A stretch of DNA of 49,279 bases from Bacteroidales bacterium (GTDB taxonomy: Bacteria > Bacteroidota > Bacteroidia > Bacteroidales > Marinilabiliaceae). The notes beneath the pieces are model-generated. The model did not search any database. It was not told the origin of the DNA and saw nothing but the letters and a program-made list of their open reading frames with translations. Position 1 is the first letter of the stretch. Each line of letters starts with the position of its first letter. The stretch lies in contig JAFPZF010000023.1 in assembly GCA_017417385.1 (NCBI GenBank), positions 1 to 49,279 of the forward strand. The letters are read 5' to 3'. Shown here in pieces: positions 1,922-49,279 of this stretch. Made by a program: the position numbers and the translations under genes.

Positions 1922-1976
1922 CAAATGAAACATAGGGAACTGCTATAAATTGCTTTTTCTGCGTTGGCGTTGCCTT

Positions 1977-2035
1977 CATTCCTCACGCTCGGCAAATTGC
2001 AAGCAAGCTTGCTTTGCTCTCGCTTAATCGGAATG
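1977..2035 (+). repeat. foldback repeat B, unit 1
   Basis: Nested inverted structure: outer arms CATTC/GAATG, conserved single-stranded blocks CTCACGCTCGGCAA and CTCTCGCTTAATCG, and a central perfect palindrome AAGCAAGCTTGCTT. Other units at 2112, 2160 and 47345 keep the conserved blocks but have different, still complementary, arms. Confidence 0.65.
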
Positions 2036-2111
2036 TTGCATTCAACTTTGAAATCCTCATGTACTCTAGTACACTCCGGTGTTCAAAGTCTCGTGCGCCT
2101 TGGCTTCGCCT

Positions 2112-2150
2112 CATGTGCTCACGCTCGGCAATATGAGCAAGCTCATTGAC
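2112..2150 (+). repeat. foldback repeat B, partial unit 2
   Basis: Has the GCTCACGCTCGGCAA block and the hairpin ATGAGCAAGCTCAT, but lacks the CTCGCTTAATCG right half. Confidence 0.55.
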
Positions 2151-2159
2151 TAGCGTCTT

Positions 2160-2215
2160 ACTTTCTCACGCTCGGCAATTGGAACAAGTTCCATTGCACT
2201 CGCTTAATCGAAAGT
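2160..2215 (+). repeat. foldback repeat B, unit 3
   Basis: Outer arms ACTTTC/GAAAGT, blocks TCACGCTCGGCAA and CACTCGCTTAATC, and central hairpin TGGAACAAGTTCCA with an AA loop. Confidence 0.6.
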
Positions 2216-2339
2216 ATGCGCTCGCTTAATCGCACAAGTGAAAAATCTAATTTCTAGAGATTCCCTATGATGTTGTCTTTTTCGTGAGGTTTCCATGTAA
2301 CACGCATACATAAACTATCCCTATAACACACACAAACTA

Positions 2340-7852: not shown

Positions 7853-7976
7853 CGGGAACTTCTATAAATTGCTTTTTCGGCGTTGCATTCAACTTTGAAA
7901 TCCTCATGTACTTCGGTACACTCCGGTGTTCAAAGTCACAAGCGCCTTGAAAAATCTAATTTCTAGAAATCCCCCT
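7852..7976 (+). repeat. palindromic element A, copy 2 (125 bp)
   Basis: The cleanest intergenic copy. Left half ACGGGAACTT, CTATAAATTGCTTTTTC, GGCGTTGCATTCA, ACTTTGAA, ATCCTCATGTAC; right half GGTACACTCCGG, TTCAAAGT, AAGCGCCTTGAAAAATC, TAATTTCTAGA, AATCCCCCT. The halves are near reverse complements, so the element can fold into one long hairpin. It begins at the last base of the upstream stop codon and ends 18 bases before the next -7 box. Confidence 0.85.
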
Positions 7977-8034: not shown

Positions 8035-9192
8035 ATGGCAAAGAATAGAGTATACTCGCTGATGGCAATAGCTCTGATGGGACTCTCCGTCGGGCTCACG
8101 TCTTGTGAGGACGAGGACACGGAGCAAGTTCAGGGAAACTGGGTGAACGTCGAGAAGGACTTCCCAGGCGTCGCGAGGGCAGGTGCAGTCAGCTTCAAGA
8201 TTGGAGAGTACGTATTCATCGGGACGGGAGCAAACACGAGTAAGACAGTAGAGAGGGAGAGGTTCAGGGACTTCTTCGCAGTAAGGCTTGACGAAGGACA
8301 GTCGACGACAGACGGCACGCAGAAGCCAGTCTGGACCGTCAACTACACTCAGGAGGGGATGCCATTCAACGTGGCAGTCGCCCCGATGCCAAACGAGGCT
8401 CCGGCGAGGAATGGTGGCGTCGGCTTCTCGATCAACGGCAAGGGATATGTCGGTCTCGGCTATGACGGTACGAAGTACCTGAAGGACTTCTGGGAGTACA
8501 CGCCGGAGACCAACTCATGGAAGAGGGTAGCGGACTATCCAGGCGATTCAGTCCGCTTTGCAGTCTCGTTCGTCATAGACAACATTGCATACGTCGGACT
8601 CGGCGAGAACTTCGACAACGACTACGTGACGGACTTCTACAAGTTCGACGGCACGGAGTGGAAGCCGATGTCGTCTTACGGCAGGCAGCTTTCACAGTCA
8701 TCGGCATTTGTCGTAGATGGCAAGGGCTACGTCGTCGGAGGTCTCGGCCAGATGGGTGCATCGTACCTCATGTATCGTTACGACCCGAAGAGAGACATCT
8801 GGGAGAAGATGAACAACACGAAGGACACGGAACGTGACGACTTCGACGACGAGTACACGGGGCTCTCGAGCTACGGTCACACGGCATTCGTCCTCTACCC
8901 GAACGACATAGAGAAGGCACGCGTATATCTCGCAACTGGCGGCAGCGCACCTGGTGGACAGGCAGCATGGGAGTACTATCCGAAGTATGACTACTGGATA
9001 CAGCGTCATCCGTTCGAGGGCAACGCGAGGAAGTTCGCAGTCTCGTTCACGCTGACTGACAAGAACGGTGTAGATCACGGCTACGTCACGACAGGCGGCA
9101 CGGACGACATGACCATCACGAACAGCGGTGGCAGGTTCTATGGGGACACGTGGATGTTTAATCCGGAGGCTCCATACGAGCACAGAGACTAA
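8035..9192 (+). CDS. kelch-repeat lipoprotein
   Basis: 385 residues. Lipobox GLTSC predicts lipidation at Cys24. The body contains kelch-type blades: GVGFSINGKGYVGLGYDG...DFWEYTPETNSWKRVADYPG, then AYVGLGENFDNDYVTDFYKFDG, GKGYVVGGLGQ...YRYDPKRDIWEKM, and a final YVTTGG...DTWMFNPEAPY. This makes a surface beta-propeller probably used for binding. It follows the DUF4270 and barrel genes in the same direction but has its own -7 box. It is followed by a strong terminator. The ligand is unknown. Confidence 0.8.
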   Translation: MAKNRVYSLMAIALMGLSVGLTSCEDEDTEQVQGNWVNVEKDFPGVARAGAVSFKIGEYVFIGTGANTSKTVERERFRDFFAVRLDEGQSTTDGTQKPVWTVNYTQEGMPFNVAVAPMPNEAPARNGGVGFSINGKGYVGLGYDGTKYLKDFWEYTPETNSWKRVADYPGDSVRFAVSFVIDNIAYVGLGENFDNDYVTDFYKFDGTEWKPMSSYGRQLSQSSAFVVDGKGYVVGGLGQMGASYLMYRYDPKRDIWEKMNNTKDTERDDFDDEYTGLSSYGHTAFVLYPNDIEKARVYLATGGSAPGGQAAWEYYPKYDYWIQRHPFEGNARKFAVSFTLTDKNGVDHGYVTTGGTDDMTITNSGGRFYGDTWMFNPEAPYEHRD

Positions 9193-9248
9193 AGGGATAG
9201 ACGTGAGAAGACACAAGCCCACGAGAGGAGTGGGAAGAAGATAAACGT

Positions 9249-9294
9249 GAAAGACCACGTCAGCAACATTGTTGACGGGTCTTTCATTTTTTTT
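9249..9294 (+). terminator. rho-independent terminator
   Basis: Stem GAAAGACC/GGTCTTTC with an inner GTCA-GCAACATT-GTTGAC pairing, followed by ATTTTTTTT. It ends the surface-protein cluster and overlaps the region just before the sensor kinase gene. Confidence 0.85.
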
Positions 9295-9304
9295 ATAATC
9301 AGTC

Positions 9305-10315
9305 ATGATGCCAAGCCAGACAGAGAAACGACGGATAGTGGAGACAGCCATAATAGTAGGGTTTGCGATACTCTTCGCATGCCCGTCGCTGCTGCGTCCC
9401 GACGCGTTGTTCTTCCCGTCGCTCATCAAGACGTTGCTAGTCTGCGTCGTCGCATACTTCCTCAACTCGAAGTTCCTGCTGCCGCGTTTCCTCTTCAGGA
9501 ATCAGTACGTCGGCTACTGCGGGTGTGTCGCGGTTGTCATGATACTGACACTCGGGGGGATGATGCTGCTCTCGGCGTGGAGGGAGACGACGTCGCCCCA
9601 GGAAGGCATGAGGATACCGTTCGAGTGGCTCATACCGCTGCTCGGGATGTTCTTCGTCAGCACGCTGTATGGCTACTATCAGAAGGAGCGCAACCACCAC
9701 GACCGTGAGATGGACCTCACCCATCAGAGCATCGAGATGGAGATGAAGTTCCTCAAGAGCCAGATAAACCCCCACTTCCTCTTCAACGCCCTCAACAACA
9801 TCTACGCCCTCTCCGTCATCAAGAGCGAGAGGACGCCAGACATGATACTCAAACTCTCCGACATGTTGCGCTTCACGCTCTACGACAGCGAGAGCAAGAA
9901 AGTCAAGCTCAAGAGAGAGATAGAGTACATCAAGAACTTCATAGAGTTCCAGAAGCTCAAGGCCGACACCGACCTCAACATCAAGATGGACTCGACGAAC
10001 TGCAACGACGAGTTCATGATAGAGCCCATGCTCCTCATCCCCTTCATCGAGAACAGCTTCAAGCACGGGAACATCGACAATCCCAAGCGGGGCTGGCTGC
10101 AGGTCGATATCAAGACGCTGGGTCCCATCCTTGTATTCCAGGTCAAGAATTCTCTGCCGTCCATCGCCATCAACAAAGACGTCGTCGGCGGCATAGGAGT
10201 CGAGAACGTCAGGAAGCGTCTCGACATATTGTACCCCGGGAGGTACGAAATGAACATCGAGACAACGGAGACAGAGTTTCGTGTCTTCATGAAAATAGAT
10301 ACCTTTGTAAGCTGA
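9305..10315 (+). CDS. LytS/YehU-type sensor histidine kinase
   Basis: 336 residues. Four hydrophobic membrane segments occupy about residues 14-125. A short linker then leads to the PF06580-type kinase core with QINPHFLFNALNNIYAL, in which His157 is the phospho-acceptor, and a HATPase region (IEPMLLIPFIENSFKHG; GGIGVENVRKRLDILYPG). There is no large extracellular sensor domain, so the signal probably acts on the membrane bundle. The partner regulator starts 11 bases downstream. Base use changes within this gene: the first third is G-rich on this strand, the rest C-rich. Confidence 0.9.
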   Translation: MMPSQTEKRRIVETAIIVGFAILFACPSLLRPDALFFPSLIKTLLVCVVAYFLNSKFLLPRFLFRNQYVGYCGCVAVVMILTLGGMMLLSAWRETTSPQEGMRIPFEWLIPLLGMFFVSTLYGYYQKERNHHDREMDLTHQSIEMEMKFLKSQINPHFLFNALNNIYALSVIKSERTPDMILKLSDMLRFTLYDSESKKVKLKREIEYIKNFIEFQKLKADTDLNIKMDSTNCNDEFMIEPMLLIPFIENSFKHGNIDNPKRGWLQVDIKTLGPILVFQVKNSLPSIAINKDVVGGIGVENVRKRLDILYPGRYEMNIETTETEFRVFMKIDTFVS

Positions 10316-10325
10316 AAATCTGAAT

Positions 10326-11126
10326 ATGGAGACACAAGACAAGATACGTTGCCTCATCGTCGACGACGAATTTCCGGCTCGAATACTCCTCAAGGAGTTC
10401 ATCGAGAAGGTCCCCAACCTCGAGCTTGTAGCATCGTGCAAGTCGGGGCTCGAGGCGTTGCCGATCGTGCAGTCCGGCAGCGTCGATCTGCTGTTCCTCG
10501 ACATTCAGATGCCAGACATCACGGGTGTCAACTTCCTCAAGATGCTACCAGTCCGTCCGCTCGTCGTCTTCACGACCGCCTACTCGGACTACGCCATCGA
10601 GAGCTACCAGCTCGACGTCCTGGACTACCTCCTCAAGCCATTCTCCTTTGACCGATTCATGCAGAGCATAGGCAAGGCCATGCAGCGACTCGGCGAACGA
10701 CAGGCACGCAAGGCCACGGAGCCTGTCCAGCAGCCCGTCGAGGAGCCCGAAGACAACGAACAGGGCGACTCGAGCTCGTGCGCCAACCTGGGCGTCAATG
10801 GCAACTTCCTCATCGTCAGGGCAGACCACAAGCTCTACCGCATCAGGTTCGACTCCATCACCTACATCGAGGGGATGAAGGAGTACGTCACCATCCACTA
10901 CGCCGACGAGCAGGTGATGGCCCTCGGGAGCATGAAGGGACTCGAAGACCTGCTCCCCAAGGCCGATTTCATACGCATACACCGGTCGTTCATCGTCCGC
11001 ATCGACAAGATCGTCGGACTCAACGGCGTCCAGCTCAAGGTCGAGGGCATCAAGCAGCCACTCCCCGTCGGGCGCTCCTACAAAGACTTCATACAAGACC
11101 GCCTCTTCAGGGTCGGCGAAATATAA
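10326..11126 (+). CDS. LytTR-family response regulator
   Basis: 266 residues. Receiver domain (about 7-125) with acidic pair VDDE (13-15), phospho-acceptor Asp59 in FLDIQMPD, and Lys104 in LLKPF. A Glu/Gln/Pro-rich linker (about 130-150) joins it to a LytTR DNA-binding domain (about 155-262: YIEGMKEYVTIHY, FIRIHRSFIV, LPVGRSYKDF). It works with the kinase immediately upstream; target promoters cannot be inferred. The cell-wall enzyme gene next in line makes an envelope role plausible. Confidence 0.92.
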   Translation: METQDKIRCLIVDDEFPARILLKEFIEKVPNLELVASCKSGLEALPIVQSGSVDLLFLDIQMPDITGVNFLKMLPVRPLVVFTTAYSDYAIESYQLDVLDYLLKPFSFDRFMQSIGKAMQRLGERQARKATEPVQQPVEEPEDNEQGDSSSCANLGVNGNFLIVRADHKLYRIRFDSITYIEGMKEYVTIHYADEQVMALGSMKGLEDLLPKADFIRIHRSFIVRIDKIVGLNGVQLKVEGIKQPLPVGRSYKDFIQDRLFRVGEI

Positions 11127-23660: not shown

Positions 23661-23727
23661 TAGGGGATTTCTAGAAATTTCTTTTTTCCTTGTGCACTGG
23701 GCCTTGGATGCCGGAGTGTACCGGAGT
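23661..23727 (-). repeat. palindromic element A, half copy
   Basis: On the plus strand, TAGGGGATTTCTAGAAATT followed by TTTTTTCCTTG and CCGGAGTGTACCG matches the reverse complement of the right half of copy 2. The left half is missing. It lies directly beyond the stop codon of the histidine kinase gene. Confidence 0.65.
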
Positions 23728-23731
23728 CTTT

Positions 23732-29594: not shown

Positions 29595-30596
29595 CTACAG
29601 TCTCTCTATCTCATCCCTTGTCAACCCACTCGCTACTTCTATCGTCTCTATCTCCACTCCCCTCTCCTTCAACACCTTCGCCATCTCCATTGCCTTCTTC
29701 TTTTCTCCATTTTTCTCTCCTTCCTCAAGGCCCTCTTTTTTCCCCTTCTCCATCCCCCTCTTCTCTCCTTCTATCAATCCCTCTCTTCTTCCTTCTATCC
29801 TTCCTTCTTCCCTTCCATCTTCCTTGTAATTTATCGCGACGTTCTGCTCCATGTCGAGGGCGTCTAGATGTCTGCGATAGACCGACTTCTCCGCAGGCGT
29901 CATCCTGTCCACTGCCAACTGATCCTTCGCCTGCACGAGTCCAGGCACCTTCGTGTCTGCCTTTATGCTGTTGTCCTTCAAAAACTTCATCCACTCGTCC
30001 ATGGCATTCCGGACGACGTTATGGAATCCGTTTATCCTTATCAGGTAGTACTTCGGGAATATATCGCTCGCCAGCTTATCTACATATTTGAACTTCCTCT
30101 TGTCCCCTCCGTTTATCTTCTCCGTCGTCAACTCTTCCCTCCTCGACAGCTTCAGTACGTCACCTTCATGCACCCCTATGAAGTCCGTCTTGGCCTCGTA
30201 GAAGTAGTCCACCCCCTTACCGAGGTCGTAATAAACTATCGAGATGGAGTACACTTGCTTGATGTCTCCATACTTCTTCCCGGCTCCCATCTGTTCCGTG
30301 ATGGCCTTCGAGACCCCATACAGAACTCTCTCAAAATAATATGTGTACCTCGTCGTCTGCACCTCGACTATGAAGTACTCCCCGTCGCTGTCCTTCGCCT
30401 TTATATCGACCCTATTAAATTTATCTTCGGCGGATTCCTGATTTCCCTCGCTCTCAAGAATCTCTGTTATCTTGCACTTCTTGCCCAGGAAGACCTCTAT
30501 GAAGCCCTCCAATATCCCGAAGTTCGCCTTGTTCCTGAGCATCTTCTTCATCGCCCAGTCGAACCTCACTAGGTCACGTCTCTCGCCTTTCTCCAT
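29595..30596 (-). CDS. Rpn-family PD-(D/E)XK nuclease (putative transposase type)
   Basis: 333 residues from ATG 30596. This start is supported by the related gene at 48928, which begins METGERRDLVRFDW and shares the upstream GGGGAAAAGTATTATC sequence with this one. The catalytic pattern is D64 in NRVDIKAKD and E78-x-Q80 in FIVEVQ. FIGVHEGD and YLIRINGFHN follow. The C-terminal third is a charged Glu/Lys/Arg/Gly repeat (about 270-315) and a short helical end (LTRDEIERL). Family members promote recombination in E. coli; the role here is inferred. It is the first gene of the island. Confidence 0.88.
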   Translation of the reverse strand: MEKGERRDLVRFDWAMKKMLRNKANFGILEGFIEVFLGKKCKITEILESEGNQESAEDKFNRVDIKAKDSDGEYFIVEVQTTRYTYYFERVLYGVSKAITEQMGAGKKYGDIKQVYSISIVYYDLGKGVDYFYEAKTDFIGVHEGDVLKLSRREELTTEKINGGDKRKFKYVDKLASDIFPKYYLIRINGFHNVVRNAMDEWMKFLKDNSIKADTKVPGLVQAKDQLAVDRMTPAEKSVYRRHLDALDMEQNVAINYKEDGREEGRIEGRREGLIEGEKRGMEKGKKEGLEEGEKNGEKKKAMEMAKVLKERGVEIETIEVASGLTRDEIERL

Positions 30597-30617
30597 ATCC
30601 TTGTCGTTTACTCGCCG

Positions 30618-30625
30618 TAAAGATA
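30618..30625 (-). promoter_or_regulatory. likely -7 box for the Rpn gene
   Basis: TATCTTTA, one base off TAnnTTTG, inside a stretch conserved with the upstream region of the paralogue at 48928. Confidence 0.45.
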
Positions 30626-30853
30626 ATACTTTTCCCCTTCCCACCACCCACGTCTCGCCTTCTACATTGTTTGTTTTGGTACAGTTCATCCTCTGTCGCC
30701 ATCCTTTTTTGAAACTCAATATCTTTTTAGATTGATTTATCATGTTAAATCACTACCTTAGCATGACAAACAAAACATAGTAACACGAAACAGACATAAC
30801 AACTTTAACTACATAGCATAGTATACTTAGCGTTTGCTATTTATTCGACACTG

Positions 30854-35563: not shown

Positions 35564-38500
35564 CTATCGCGAACGGAGTTTCTCTATCCGCCTGTTGAGC
35601 TGTCTCTTCCTGATACCATCGATGTAGTCCAAGGCTTTCCTCAGAAGATCGAAGTACAGCGTCACGTAGAGGAGGAAGACGCTCAGCCACATCACGCAGC
35701 AGTTGAACAGCGGCGTCTCGACCTTCATGCCGAATATCTTCTTGACAGGCGCATACAGCTGTGCCCTGCCCCACTCGCTCGTCGGCTCCTGATATATCGG
35801 CTGACGGCGACGCACCATCTTGTCGTCGTAGACTGAGATGTATGTATACTGGTCTCTCCGCGTGACGAGGCTCGTCAGCGCATCGTTAGTGCTCTCATGC
35901 TTGAGTCTAGCCAGCGCCTCGACTCCGCCTAGGCGCTCCGCCATCTCGACGGAGATCTTGTCTCTCTCCTCCGTCGCCTTGTTGTACCTCGCCTGCGCCT
36001 CCGCCTTGAGCTTGCCTACTGCCCCGACGGCCTTCTCGCTGCGCGACAGGCTGACTCCGAGCTCCTCGGCGACCTTCCTCGCCTCGCTCTCCGCCAATGC
36101 CGTCCGTCCGCTCCTCTCTGCCTGCTCTATCTCCGGCAGCCACGAGTTGAGGACGTACGACGCAAGCGACCTCTCCTCCTCGACAGCGTTGAAGTTGCGC
36201 TCGTAGGCGTTGTTGCGATACTGCTCGACCGCCATCGCCTCATACGCCCACCGGCTCGTCATCATGTCGCCGATTGCCGGGACGTACTCCCTGTGCCCTA
36301 TCATCGGGTGGAGCTTGGAGTAGTCGACCATCGTCCCGCTGAAGAGGAGCTGTGGGACGAGGACGAGAGGTATCGTGATGTATATCGCGACCTGCGACTT
36401 CAGTCCGCTGCTGATGTTGAGTCCCAGCAGGACCGCCCATGCGTAGGCCGTGAACAGTATGCCCGTATGTGCGAGCCACATGCCCTCGATGCCCAGTATT
36501 CCGTGCCCGATGCTGACGAGCATCATGGTCTGGACCAGCGAGATGAACAACAGGTTCATTATCTTCGCGCCGAGATACGCCGTCCGGCTCAGCCCGAGAA
36601 AGCTCTCGCGCATCAGGAGCTGCTTGTCCCTGATTATCTCCTCCGCCGATATGTTGAGCCCCATGAAGAGGGCGACGACGACGCACATGAACAGGTACGT
36701 CGGGATGTTGTCATTGGCGGCGAGGCTGTAGATTCCGCTCTCGCCTATGTAGCGCGTCGCGAAGGCGAGCAGCAGGGCGAGGATTGGAACCTCTATCAGG
36801 TTGAGTATGACGTACTGTGTGTTGTGGAGTTTCTTGAGTCCGTCCCTGCAGATGTAGGTCCATATCTGGCTCCTCCGGCTCGGTATCTGGCAGAGGTTGT
36901 TGGGGAGCTTCTCCCTCTGGACGTTCTTGCGGCTCTTCCAGTCGAACTTCGACTCTATCTCGTCCTTGTAGCTCTTGTACCACTCCTGTGGCGTGACCTT
37001 CCTCCGCCTGATGAGCTTGCCACTCGGGTCGACCATTCGCGTCTCGATGATCCTCAGCGGCTGCTCGGTCTTGACGTTGCCACACTTGTAGCACTCTCTC
37101 TCCTCGGCATTGACGTAGTGCGCCTTCTGCTTGAAATAGACGATGGCGTTCATCGGGTTGCCGTTGTAGACGACGTATCCGCCCTGGTCTATCAGTATGA
37201 GCCTGTCGAGAAGCTTGTAGATGTCGCTGCTCGGCTGATGTATGTTGATGATGACGAGCTTTCCCTTGAGGACCTGTCGCTTCAGGAGGGTCATGACCTT
37301 CTCGCTGTCGGAACTGGAGAGACCGGACGTCGGCTCGTCGGCGAACAAGATGCTCGGCTCCCTCATCAGTTCGAGGGCTATGTTGAGTCGTTTGCGCTGT
37401 CCGCCACTGATAATCTTGTTGACTGGGCTGCCGACCCTCAGGTCGCGCGCCTCCGTCAGGTCGAAGTCTGCCAGTGCCTTCTCGACGAGGACGGCCTTCT
37501 CCTCGCGGCTCTTGCCTCGGAATATCAGCTGGGCGTTGAACCAGAGGTTCTGCTCGACGGTGAGCTCCTCGCTGAGCATGTCGTCCTGCGGGACGTAGCC
37601 TATGACTCCCTCGAACTTCTCCGGCTCGTTGTTGAGGTCGTAGCCGTTGATGACGATGCTGCCGTGCGTCGGCTTGAGTCGTCCGCACATGAGGTTCATC
37701 AGGGTCGACTTGCCGCTGCCCGAGCCGCCCATGATGCCGACGAGCTGTCCGCTCTTGCCCTCGAAGCTGAACTCGTGGACACCGACGATGTCGTCAGAGA
37801 ACTTATACTCGATGTCCTTGGCGTGATACAAGATGCGGCCGCGCTCCTCCCTCGAGATGAACTTCTCCGCTATGTGGCCGAAATACACTGGCCTGACGTG
37901 GGACGTGCCGAGGACTGCTCCCGGCTCTATCGGGTACACCTTGCCGGCGTCCATCTTATGGCCGCTCAGGTAGAGGTTGCGGTCGCCGCTGTATCTGAAA
38001 AAGAAGGAATTGGTGCACGCGACGTGGAGGACCCACAGTTCGACGCCGAAGTCGCGCGCATAGATATGTTTCGTGTCGGCGTTCTTCTTCTCTGGCGTGT
38101 TGCTGATGTAGAGGAGACGTTGCTTCTGGACGACCATCATCGGCTCGCGGATGGTGAACGTCTTGAGGTTCCAATAGTCCTGCGCTGGTATCCTGAGGCA
38201 GTCGGCGAGGCGGTCGACGAACTGCTCCTCCTCCTCGGTGTAGTCTGGACGCGCTATGTAGCCGAGCATAGACGAGAGGAGCAGCACCTTCTCTCGTGTG
38301 TCGATCTCCATGTTGATGCTCTCGCAGATGGCCCGTAGCCTGTCGAAGTTGCGCGCTGTCTGTACCTGCAGTGCGACCTCGTCGGCTCCGCTGTCGGCGA
38401 GCGCTGCGGTGTGGTATCGTGCGACGTAGGACTCGTACAAGTGAACATACTTCGTGACATAGTCCGTGTTGAACTGGAATGACAGGAACTCACCGACCTT

Positions 38501-48927: not shown

Positions 48928-49279
48928 ATGGAGACGGGCGAGAGACGAGACCTAGTGAGGTTCGACTGGGTGATGAAGAAGATGCTCAGGAACAAGGCGA
49001 ACTTCGGGATATTGGAGGGCTTCATAGAGGTCTTCCTGGGCACGAAGTGCAAGATAACGGAGATTCTTGAGAGCGAGGGGAATCAGGAATCCGCCGAAGA
49101 CAAGTATACGAGGTCATCTATAAATTGCTTATTTCCGCGTTGCACTTCACGCTTAGAATCCTCATTTACTACAGTAAACTCCGGTTCTAAGCGCTCGCGC
49201 GCCTTGAAAAATCTAATTTCTAGATACCCTCGTAATCATGTATATGTAAAGGCGAAGGATAGCGACGGGGAGTACTTCA
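48928..49279 (+). CDS. Rpn-family PD-(D/E)XK nuclease, partial, carrying an in-frame palindromic insertion
   Basis: The start METGERRDLVRFDW and the next 45 residues match the complete family member at 29595-30596 almost residue for residue up to Asp58-Lys59-Tyr60. A 126-bp palindromic element then follows in frame (42 codons, no stop; TRSSINCLFPRC...), after which the family sequence resumes as NHVYVKAKDSDGEYF, against NRVDIKAKDSDGEYF in the intact copy. The catalytic Asp64 of the intact copy is therefore Tyr here. A TATCTTTA box (48898-48905) in a conserved upstream stretch probably drives it. The gene runs off the window. Confidence 0.85.
   Translation, partial: METGERRDLVRFDWVMKKMLRNKANFGILEGFIEVFLGTKCKITEILESEGNQESAEDKYTRSSINCLFPRCTSRLESSFTTVNSGSKRSRALKNLISRYPRNHVYVKAKDSDGEYF
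49108..49233 (+). repeat. palindromic element A, copy 3 (126 bp, inside a coding gene)
   Basis: Left half ACGAGGTCAT, CTATAAATTGCTTATTT, GCGTTGCACTTCAC, GCTTAGAA, TCCTCATTTAC; right half AGTAAACTCCGG, TTCTAAGC, GCGCGCCTTGAAAAATC, TAATTTCTAGA, TACCCTCGT. Its outer arms ACGAGG/CCTCGT and centre arms GCTTAGAA/TTCTAAGC differ from copy 2 but remain complementary. Confidence 0.88.

Follow-up and report, generated by a model that had tools for sequence, protein, structure and literature searches.

The stretch analyzed here (the window; 49,279 nucleotides) is the entire contig C71 of a Bacteroidales genome of 3.6 Mb in 97 contigs, hereafter G000. At its right-hand end lies the 5' part of a nuclease gene interrupted by an insert, and an uninterrupted paralogue is found on the opposite strand of the same contig (Table 1). 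The initial annotation had described the insert as exactly 126 bp long with complementary arms, and this is what we observe: it is bounded by ACGAGG (49108-49113) and CCTCGT (49228-49233), and the interrupted protein reads DKYTR[42 aa]VYVKAKD where the paralogue has DKFNRVDIKAKD, with 48 residues between the common flanks versus 6. Also as that annotation had it, the insert is open in the frame of the gene and stopped in the other two plus-strand frames (one minus-strand frame is open as well), and the family sequence resumes in register afterwards: the flanks match the paralogue and the frame runs on, across a putative junction, to a stop codon in contig C56. The start of C56 and the end of the window share a 136-bp overlap with a single mismatch (position 49269), from which we infer that the two contigs join into one gene. 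Pfam PF12784 matches the intact paralogue and the C56 part of the interrupted gene; the window fragment alone has no Pfam match. The aspartate of the RVD motif at the insertion point, which we take to be the expected catalytic D of the PD-(D/E)XK fold, is replaced by Y in the interrupted copy (RVD to VY).

Table 1. Features of the window discussed in the text
Feature	Position	Strand	Basis
5' part of interrupted PD-(D/E)XK (PDDEXK_2/Rpn-type) nuclease gene	48928..49279	+	presumed to run on into contig C56
126-bp insert in frame (a copy of the palindromic element)	49108..49233	+	paralogue comparison; covariance model R1
Left terminal arm, CTTATTT form	49108..49134	+	end-block comparison, alignment
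Inner hairpin: stem CGCTTAGAA/TTCTAAGCG, internal loop TCCTCA/CTCCGG, apical stem TTTAC/GTAAA	49150..49193	+	alignment, covariation
Right terminal arm, complementary to left arm	49206..49233	+	end-block comparison, arm pairing
Uninterrupted nuclease paralogue (empty site)	29595..30743	-	sequence comparison, Pfam PF12784
Copy between ORFs, 331 bp, enlarged by nested palindromic modules	1935..2265	+	end blocks, R1
121-bp copy of the common short form, between ORFs	7854..7974	+	end blocks, R1
Remnant right half of a copy	23663..23730	-	right-block match

By its anatomy, the palindromic, gene-less element of which the insert is one copy is a miniature inverted-repeat transposable element (MITE). 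Model R1, whose alignment itself includes the window copy, matches it at 49109-49233 with 122 bits. The further copies that had been placed near 1933 and 7852, and a half copy at 23661, are those of Table 1, and the end blocks recur throughout the genome. With up to three mismatches, a 19-nt right block is found four times in the window and 118 times in G000; these counts exclude chance, since shuffling yields a mean of 0.01 in the window and the reversed control yields 0 in the genome. From part of the 118 right ends we extracted 107 copies, some copies seen by R1 only also falling outside this set. Ninety-three could be paired with a left end (two of these are double counts) and 14 have no partnered left end; the frame-span scan and the count of identical flanking 4-mers below use the 93, and the arm-pairing, 4-nt-window and flank-joining tests use 91.

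Elements measure from 121 bp to about 600 bp and are thus short, present in many copies and too small for a transposase gene. Their ends read as GGGAACTTC...GAACTTCCC, and the left block occurs in two forms, the common CTTTTTC and a minor CTTATTT that is one base longer. Block-to-block distances are mostly stepped (87-91, about 147-164, 224-232, 292-307 and 365-370, with others up to 574), and the longer copies contain additional palindromic modules. There are in addition minimal copies only a few dozen bases long, some of which are bordered on either side by an identical stretch of four bases. A long nested array of palindromic modules of the CTCACGCTCGGCA...CTCGCTTAATCG type lies downstream of the interrupted gene in C56 (L002 1140-1594). 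Most copies are intergenic, many starting a few bases from the stop codon of the ORF upstream. In contig C76, an Rpn-type nuclease gene stops right at the left end of an element (L078, near 2328).

The family has terminal inverted repeats. When 36 short copies, including 11 taken from other genomes, are aligned, a single long hairpin with several conserved internal loops is predicted. Pairing is found in 94.2% of cells, versus 84.9% in shuffled and at most 51.5% in slid alignments. Covariation reaches 0.255 versus 0.097 and at most 0.092, respectively, figures that are favored by the relatedness of the rows and by the prediction of the structure from those same rows. Two-sided changes occur in 18 of 36 pairs, and pairing of the outer arms rises above shuffles inside the element ends and not beyond them. 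By eye, the outer stems of some copies from other genomes are very different in sequence and still pair. Together these comparisons show that the predicted hairpin is maintained by compensatory changes.

A known Rfam RNA was considered and rejected: across four element-bearing loci, no match at an element reaches the gathering score. Related cores score 31.7 and 31.3 of the 44 bits required for sX9, a Xanthomonas sRNA (L325 1521-1572 and L315 1480-1570), and these sub-threshold matches hint that relatives of the element are perhaps transcribed. A TPP riboswitch in the sX9-scored stretch lies away from the element core.

The flanks carry the mark of an insertion, a duplication of 4 bp that is A+T-rich. 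Identical 4-mers flank 19 of the 93 pairs in G000 (mean 2.5 and highest 7 in 1000 shuffles) and 58 of 103 distinct copies in other genomes (mean 6.4 and maximum 14 after shuffling), the latter being a recount after 3 of an initial 106 copies proved to be repeats of one place. For the best 4-nt flank window, z sums to 7.1 over 91 copies in G000 and to 13.7 over the copies in other genomes. A copy nested inside another copy (L035) is, by eye, also consistent with four bases. Although present in the family, the duplication is not recognizable around the copy in the interrupted gene of the window. We read the family as mobile because it is multi-copy, has a covarying hairpin, duplicates 4 bp and is present in some genomes and absent from others.

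The element is very probably a non-autonomous palindromic transposable element, a MITE, with a patchy distribution in the order of its host. A putative DDE-type transposase supplied in trans would recognize the ends, make a 4-bp staggered cut and move the element. The loci examined contain no parent insertion sequence or autonomous copy; several unpaired ends sit at contig ends. It has also to be considered that the sequences act mainly as a functional structure in RNA or DNA (a terminator, an mRNA stabilizer or an sRNA) and were spread by recombination. The strong covariation, the frequent start of copies near a stop codon and the sub-threshold sX9 scores would all suit such a role, but target duplications, empty sites and patchy presence would not, nor would gene insertions in both orientations (L004 below versus the window copy and L023), and we hold this explanation to be decidedly unlikely.

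Which copies lie inside genes was addressed through a scan of the 93 paired copies for spanning reading frames. Four places emerged, of which L005 and L028 were judged spurious as gene insertions and L004 and L023 are real; the window copy is a third real case, missed by the scan because of the contig end. Pfam places L004 and L023 in PDDEXK_9 genes, so that all three gene copies are in genes of PD-(D/E)XK nuclease families. Uninterrupted paralogues supply the empty sites that an insertion implies, with net inserts of 42, 42 and 40 codons: the paralogues of the window nuclease lack 42 codons, five of five close paralogues of L004 lack exactly 42, and two of two paralogues of L023 lack 120 bp, or 40 codons, against an expected net 126 bp. 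The L004 copy is inserted in the orientation opposite to the other two. Targeting of nuclease neighborhoods was examined and rejected: only four of the 107 copies lie within 1.5 kb of a nuclease gene, three of them being the inserts themselves.

Apart from these three, no paired copy (of 93, with two double counts) was recognized inside a gene. When the flanks of 91 copies were joined, 29 rows of reading frames crossed the junction; with the exception of L004 we regard them, mostly after visual inspection, as intergenic or spurious. L004 is one of fourteen rows that have at least 70 codons on both sides. For ten of these fourteen, a set that excludes L110, L031 and L047, the two sides were compared separately with Pfam and have no family in common; in six of the ten neither side matches, so these are possibly coding. 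The window and L023 copies are absent from the junction rows because their right flanks are short. Within the limits of this junction test, no frame-breaking gene insertion was recognized. The copies from other genomes include one weak spanning case (L268).

Length and reading frame divide the two forms of the element. In all three gene copies the left block is CTTATTT and the distance between the ends is 122 bp, hence 126 bp with the 4-bp duplication; most copies of the common form have 121 bp, hence 125 bp, a length that breaks the frame. Of 26 short copies, five combine a length divisible by three, the 4-bp duplication counted, with an open frame. Three of the five are the gene copies, and the remaining two, L007 and L129, lie outside recognized genes, as does the CTTATTT form at L006, L178 and the C1 cluster. 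Gene insertion is a minor habit of one sub-form that also sits outside genes.

These observations are best explained by the survival of frame-compatible insertions, with no targeting of reading frames: the form longer by one base, with an expected net gain of 126 bp and one or two stop-free frames, would be readable as extra codons. One may alternatively suppose that the element is adapted for coding insertion in the manner of the Rickettsia palindromic element (RPE), its length and open frames being selected and the added peptide tolerated or useful. That the gene copies all belong to the one-base-longer form, and make up three of the five open multiples of three, would agree with such an adaptation, as would the apparent constraint on the interrupted genes and the position of the L004 insert between two recognized domains. 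Survival of compatible insertions nevertheless explains the same data. Furthermore, no open frame at all is present in 15 of the 19 short common-class copies, most open frames among the peptide matches listed are shorter than about 80 aa, which is little above the size of the element, and the other-genome copies contribute no spanning case beyond L268. We consider an adaptation for coding unlikely.

A further possibility is that the interrupted genes are decaying pseudogenes whose frames are open by luck. The loss of the aspartate at the insertion point of the window copy points in this direction, and so do branch ratios of non-synonymous to synonymous change that are somewhat above those of intact copies. 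In the nuclease part of the window gene we counted 23 synonymous and 8 non-synonymous branch changes (ratio 0.09, versus 0.03 for an intact copy), and in L004 14 and 10 (ratio 0.16, versus 0.07 and 0.11 for intact copies), ratios that include the time before the insertion. A stop-bearing paralogue at C30 has, however, a much higher ratio of 0.4, and three of three interrupted genes are open over their known length. Constraint thus appears to remain on the two genes measured, perhaps in relaxed form, and we consider their decay rather unlikely.

Copies in G000 are strikingly uniform with respect to the composition of the surrounding strand. The flanks are G-rich on the element strand in 104 of 107 copies when taken within 3 kb, and in 105 of 107 within 1.5 kb. 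This strand lock was examined as a by-product of gene direction, an explanation we rejected since the lock holds in every context of flanking ORFs (44/44, 15/16 and 14/14, and 16/16 where both neighbors are on the opposite strand); ORFs on the opposite strand carry the same skew (101/111). The window offers an illustration: GC skew changes sign at 9000-11000 and near 38000, the copies at 1935, 7854 and 49108 are on the plus strand and that at 23663 on the minus strand, and the genes supported by Pfam all run the same way between 0.5 and 17.6 kb despite the flip in skew. The G-rich skew presumably marks the leading strand in G000. In other genomes no lock is seen (56 of 103 distinct copies positive, and 16 of 35 at stronger skew).

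Strand lock and hairpin would both be explained if the element were of REP/REPIN type and a Y1 (RAYT) transposase mobilized it by way of single-stranded DNA, and the conserved mismatches of the hairpin and the orientation of 104 of 107 copies with the G-rich strand are in keeping with such an origin. We rejected this mechanism, which appears highly improbable, since PF01797 (Y1_Tnp) has no match in G000, a genome 98.6% complete, although five of 14 control genomes match. The 4-bp target duplications and the lack of a lock in other genomes also argue against it. Overall, then, the family is very probably a MITE served by a putative transposase acting in trans, its gene copies representing frame-compatible insertions that survived and not a targeting of frames.

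Beyond G000, R1 matches none of 14 other genomes in the genus. For the order, 393 genomes were sampled, with at most eight candidates scored per genome under strict filters, and 98 of them match, G000 included. In a sample of the phylum, 38 of 395 genomes match; 34 of these belong to one family of another class, and the matches are weak, at about 32-51 bits. Phage as the main vehicle was rejected: viral contigs gave no hit with one core pattern and two with a wider pattern, and one element searched against a phage collection gave no match. Against plasmids, one element gave one short, chance-like match and another gave none. Separately, an IMG/VR viral contig carries a complete element whose ends are similar in sequence (L322 4666-4812; 46.8 bits).

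A related palindromic repeat, perhaps the one called RSA, was found in Escherichia coli strain 7/2 between hemE and nfi (L325 1465-1608). MG1655 lacks it and has an empty site (L326 5781-5791), with three to five repeated bases by eye. With R1, a hemE-nfi copy reaches 34.4 bits (E = 2.1e-6 over 15 kb, R1 E-values being rough), and 59 bp of the E. coli repeat match, at 89.8%, a related element from a different genome in the phylum. Repeats of this type also occur between ucpA and cysP and in 5375 of 5426 E. coli genomes, at a median of five places per genome. They have a hairpin core in common with our element but differ in length (144-146 bp) and in their ends. A strain-variable relative at hemE-nfi would open this element family to laboratory genetics.

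On a broader and much more speculative view, which we would put forward only tentatively, these sequences may form one family of structured, palindromic mobile elements shared between phyla, its amplification in G000 coupled to replication and its orientation there fixed to the G-rich strand, with a sub-form tuned to multiples of three and open frames that adds about 42 codons to nucleases. The strand lock provides a handle on how the orientation of a MITE gets chosen. Several uninterrupted paralogues exist for each interrupted gene, which makes it testable whether the insertions are merely tolerated.

Searches of open-license literature gave no description of the element among the entries listed, which is weak evidence of novelty, subscription papers being mostly outside their scope. 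MITEs as such are already known in Bacteroidales, for example in Porphyromonas gingivalis, where the cited portions of text describe BrickBuilt as strictly intergenic and carrying a minisatellite (PMC10969869). Compared by description, our element differs in having three copies in genes. ERIC has TA as its target duplication. ERIC/RU-1, Correia and QMITE are described in the cited sections as short elements with terminal inverted repeats, many copies and no transposase gene, mostly intergenic with occasional in-frame gene copies (PMC2759123, PMC5896051). Again by description only, they are alike in MITE anatomy, but the element reported here has a 4-bp rather than a TA duplication, nested palindromic enlargements and a strand lock.

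In-frame gene insertions have been described for RPE, ERIC/RU and QMITE (PMC10969869, PMC5896051, PMC2759123, PMC3733652, as far as the cited sections go). Mobile palindromes inserted in frame are best known from Rickettsia, and we present here a case elsewhere. RPEs are palindromic sequences of about 100-150 bp that occur within genes in the reading frame (PMC10969869, PMC3733652), and the cited part of one account places nearly half of those of R. conorii in reading frames (PMC10969869). The initial annotation had likened the insert to an RPE. The likeness, drawn by description only, stands for palindromic form and in-frame entry into genes, of which we have three cases; as a general description of the element it does not, the common form being of frame-breaking length. 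With 3 of 93 paired copies in genes, versus nearly half in R. conorii, the element resembles RPE in three nuclease genes and is otherwise mainly intergenic.
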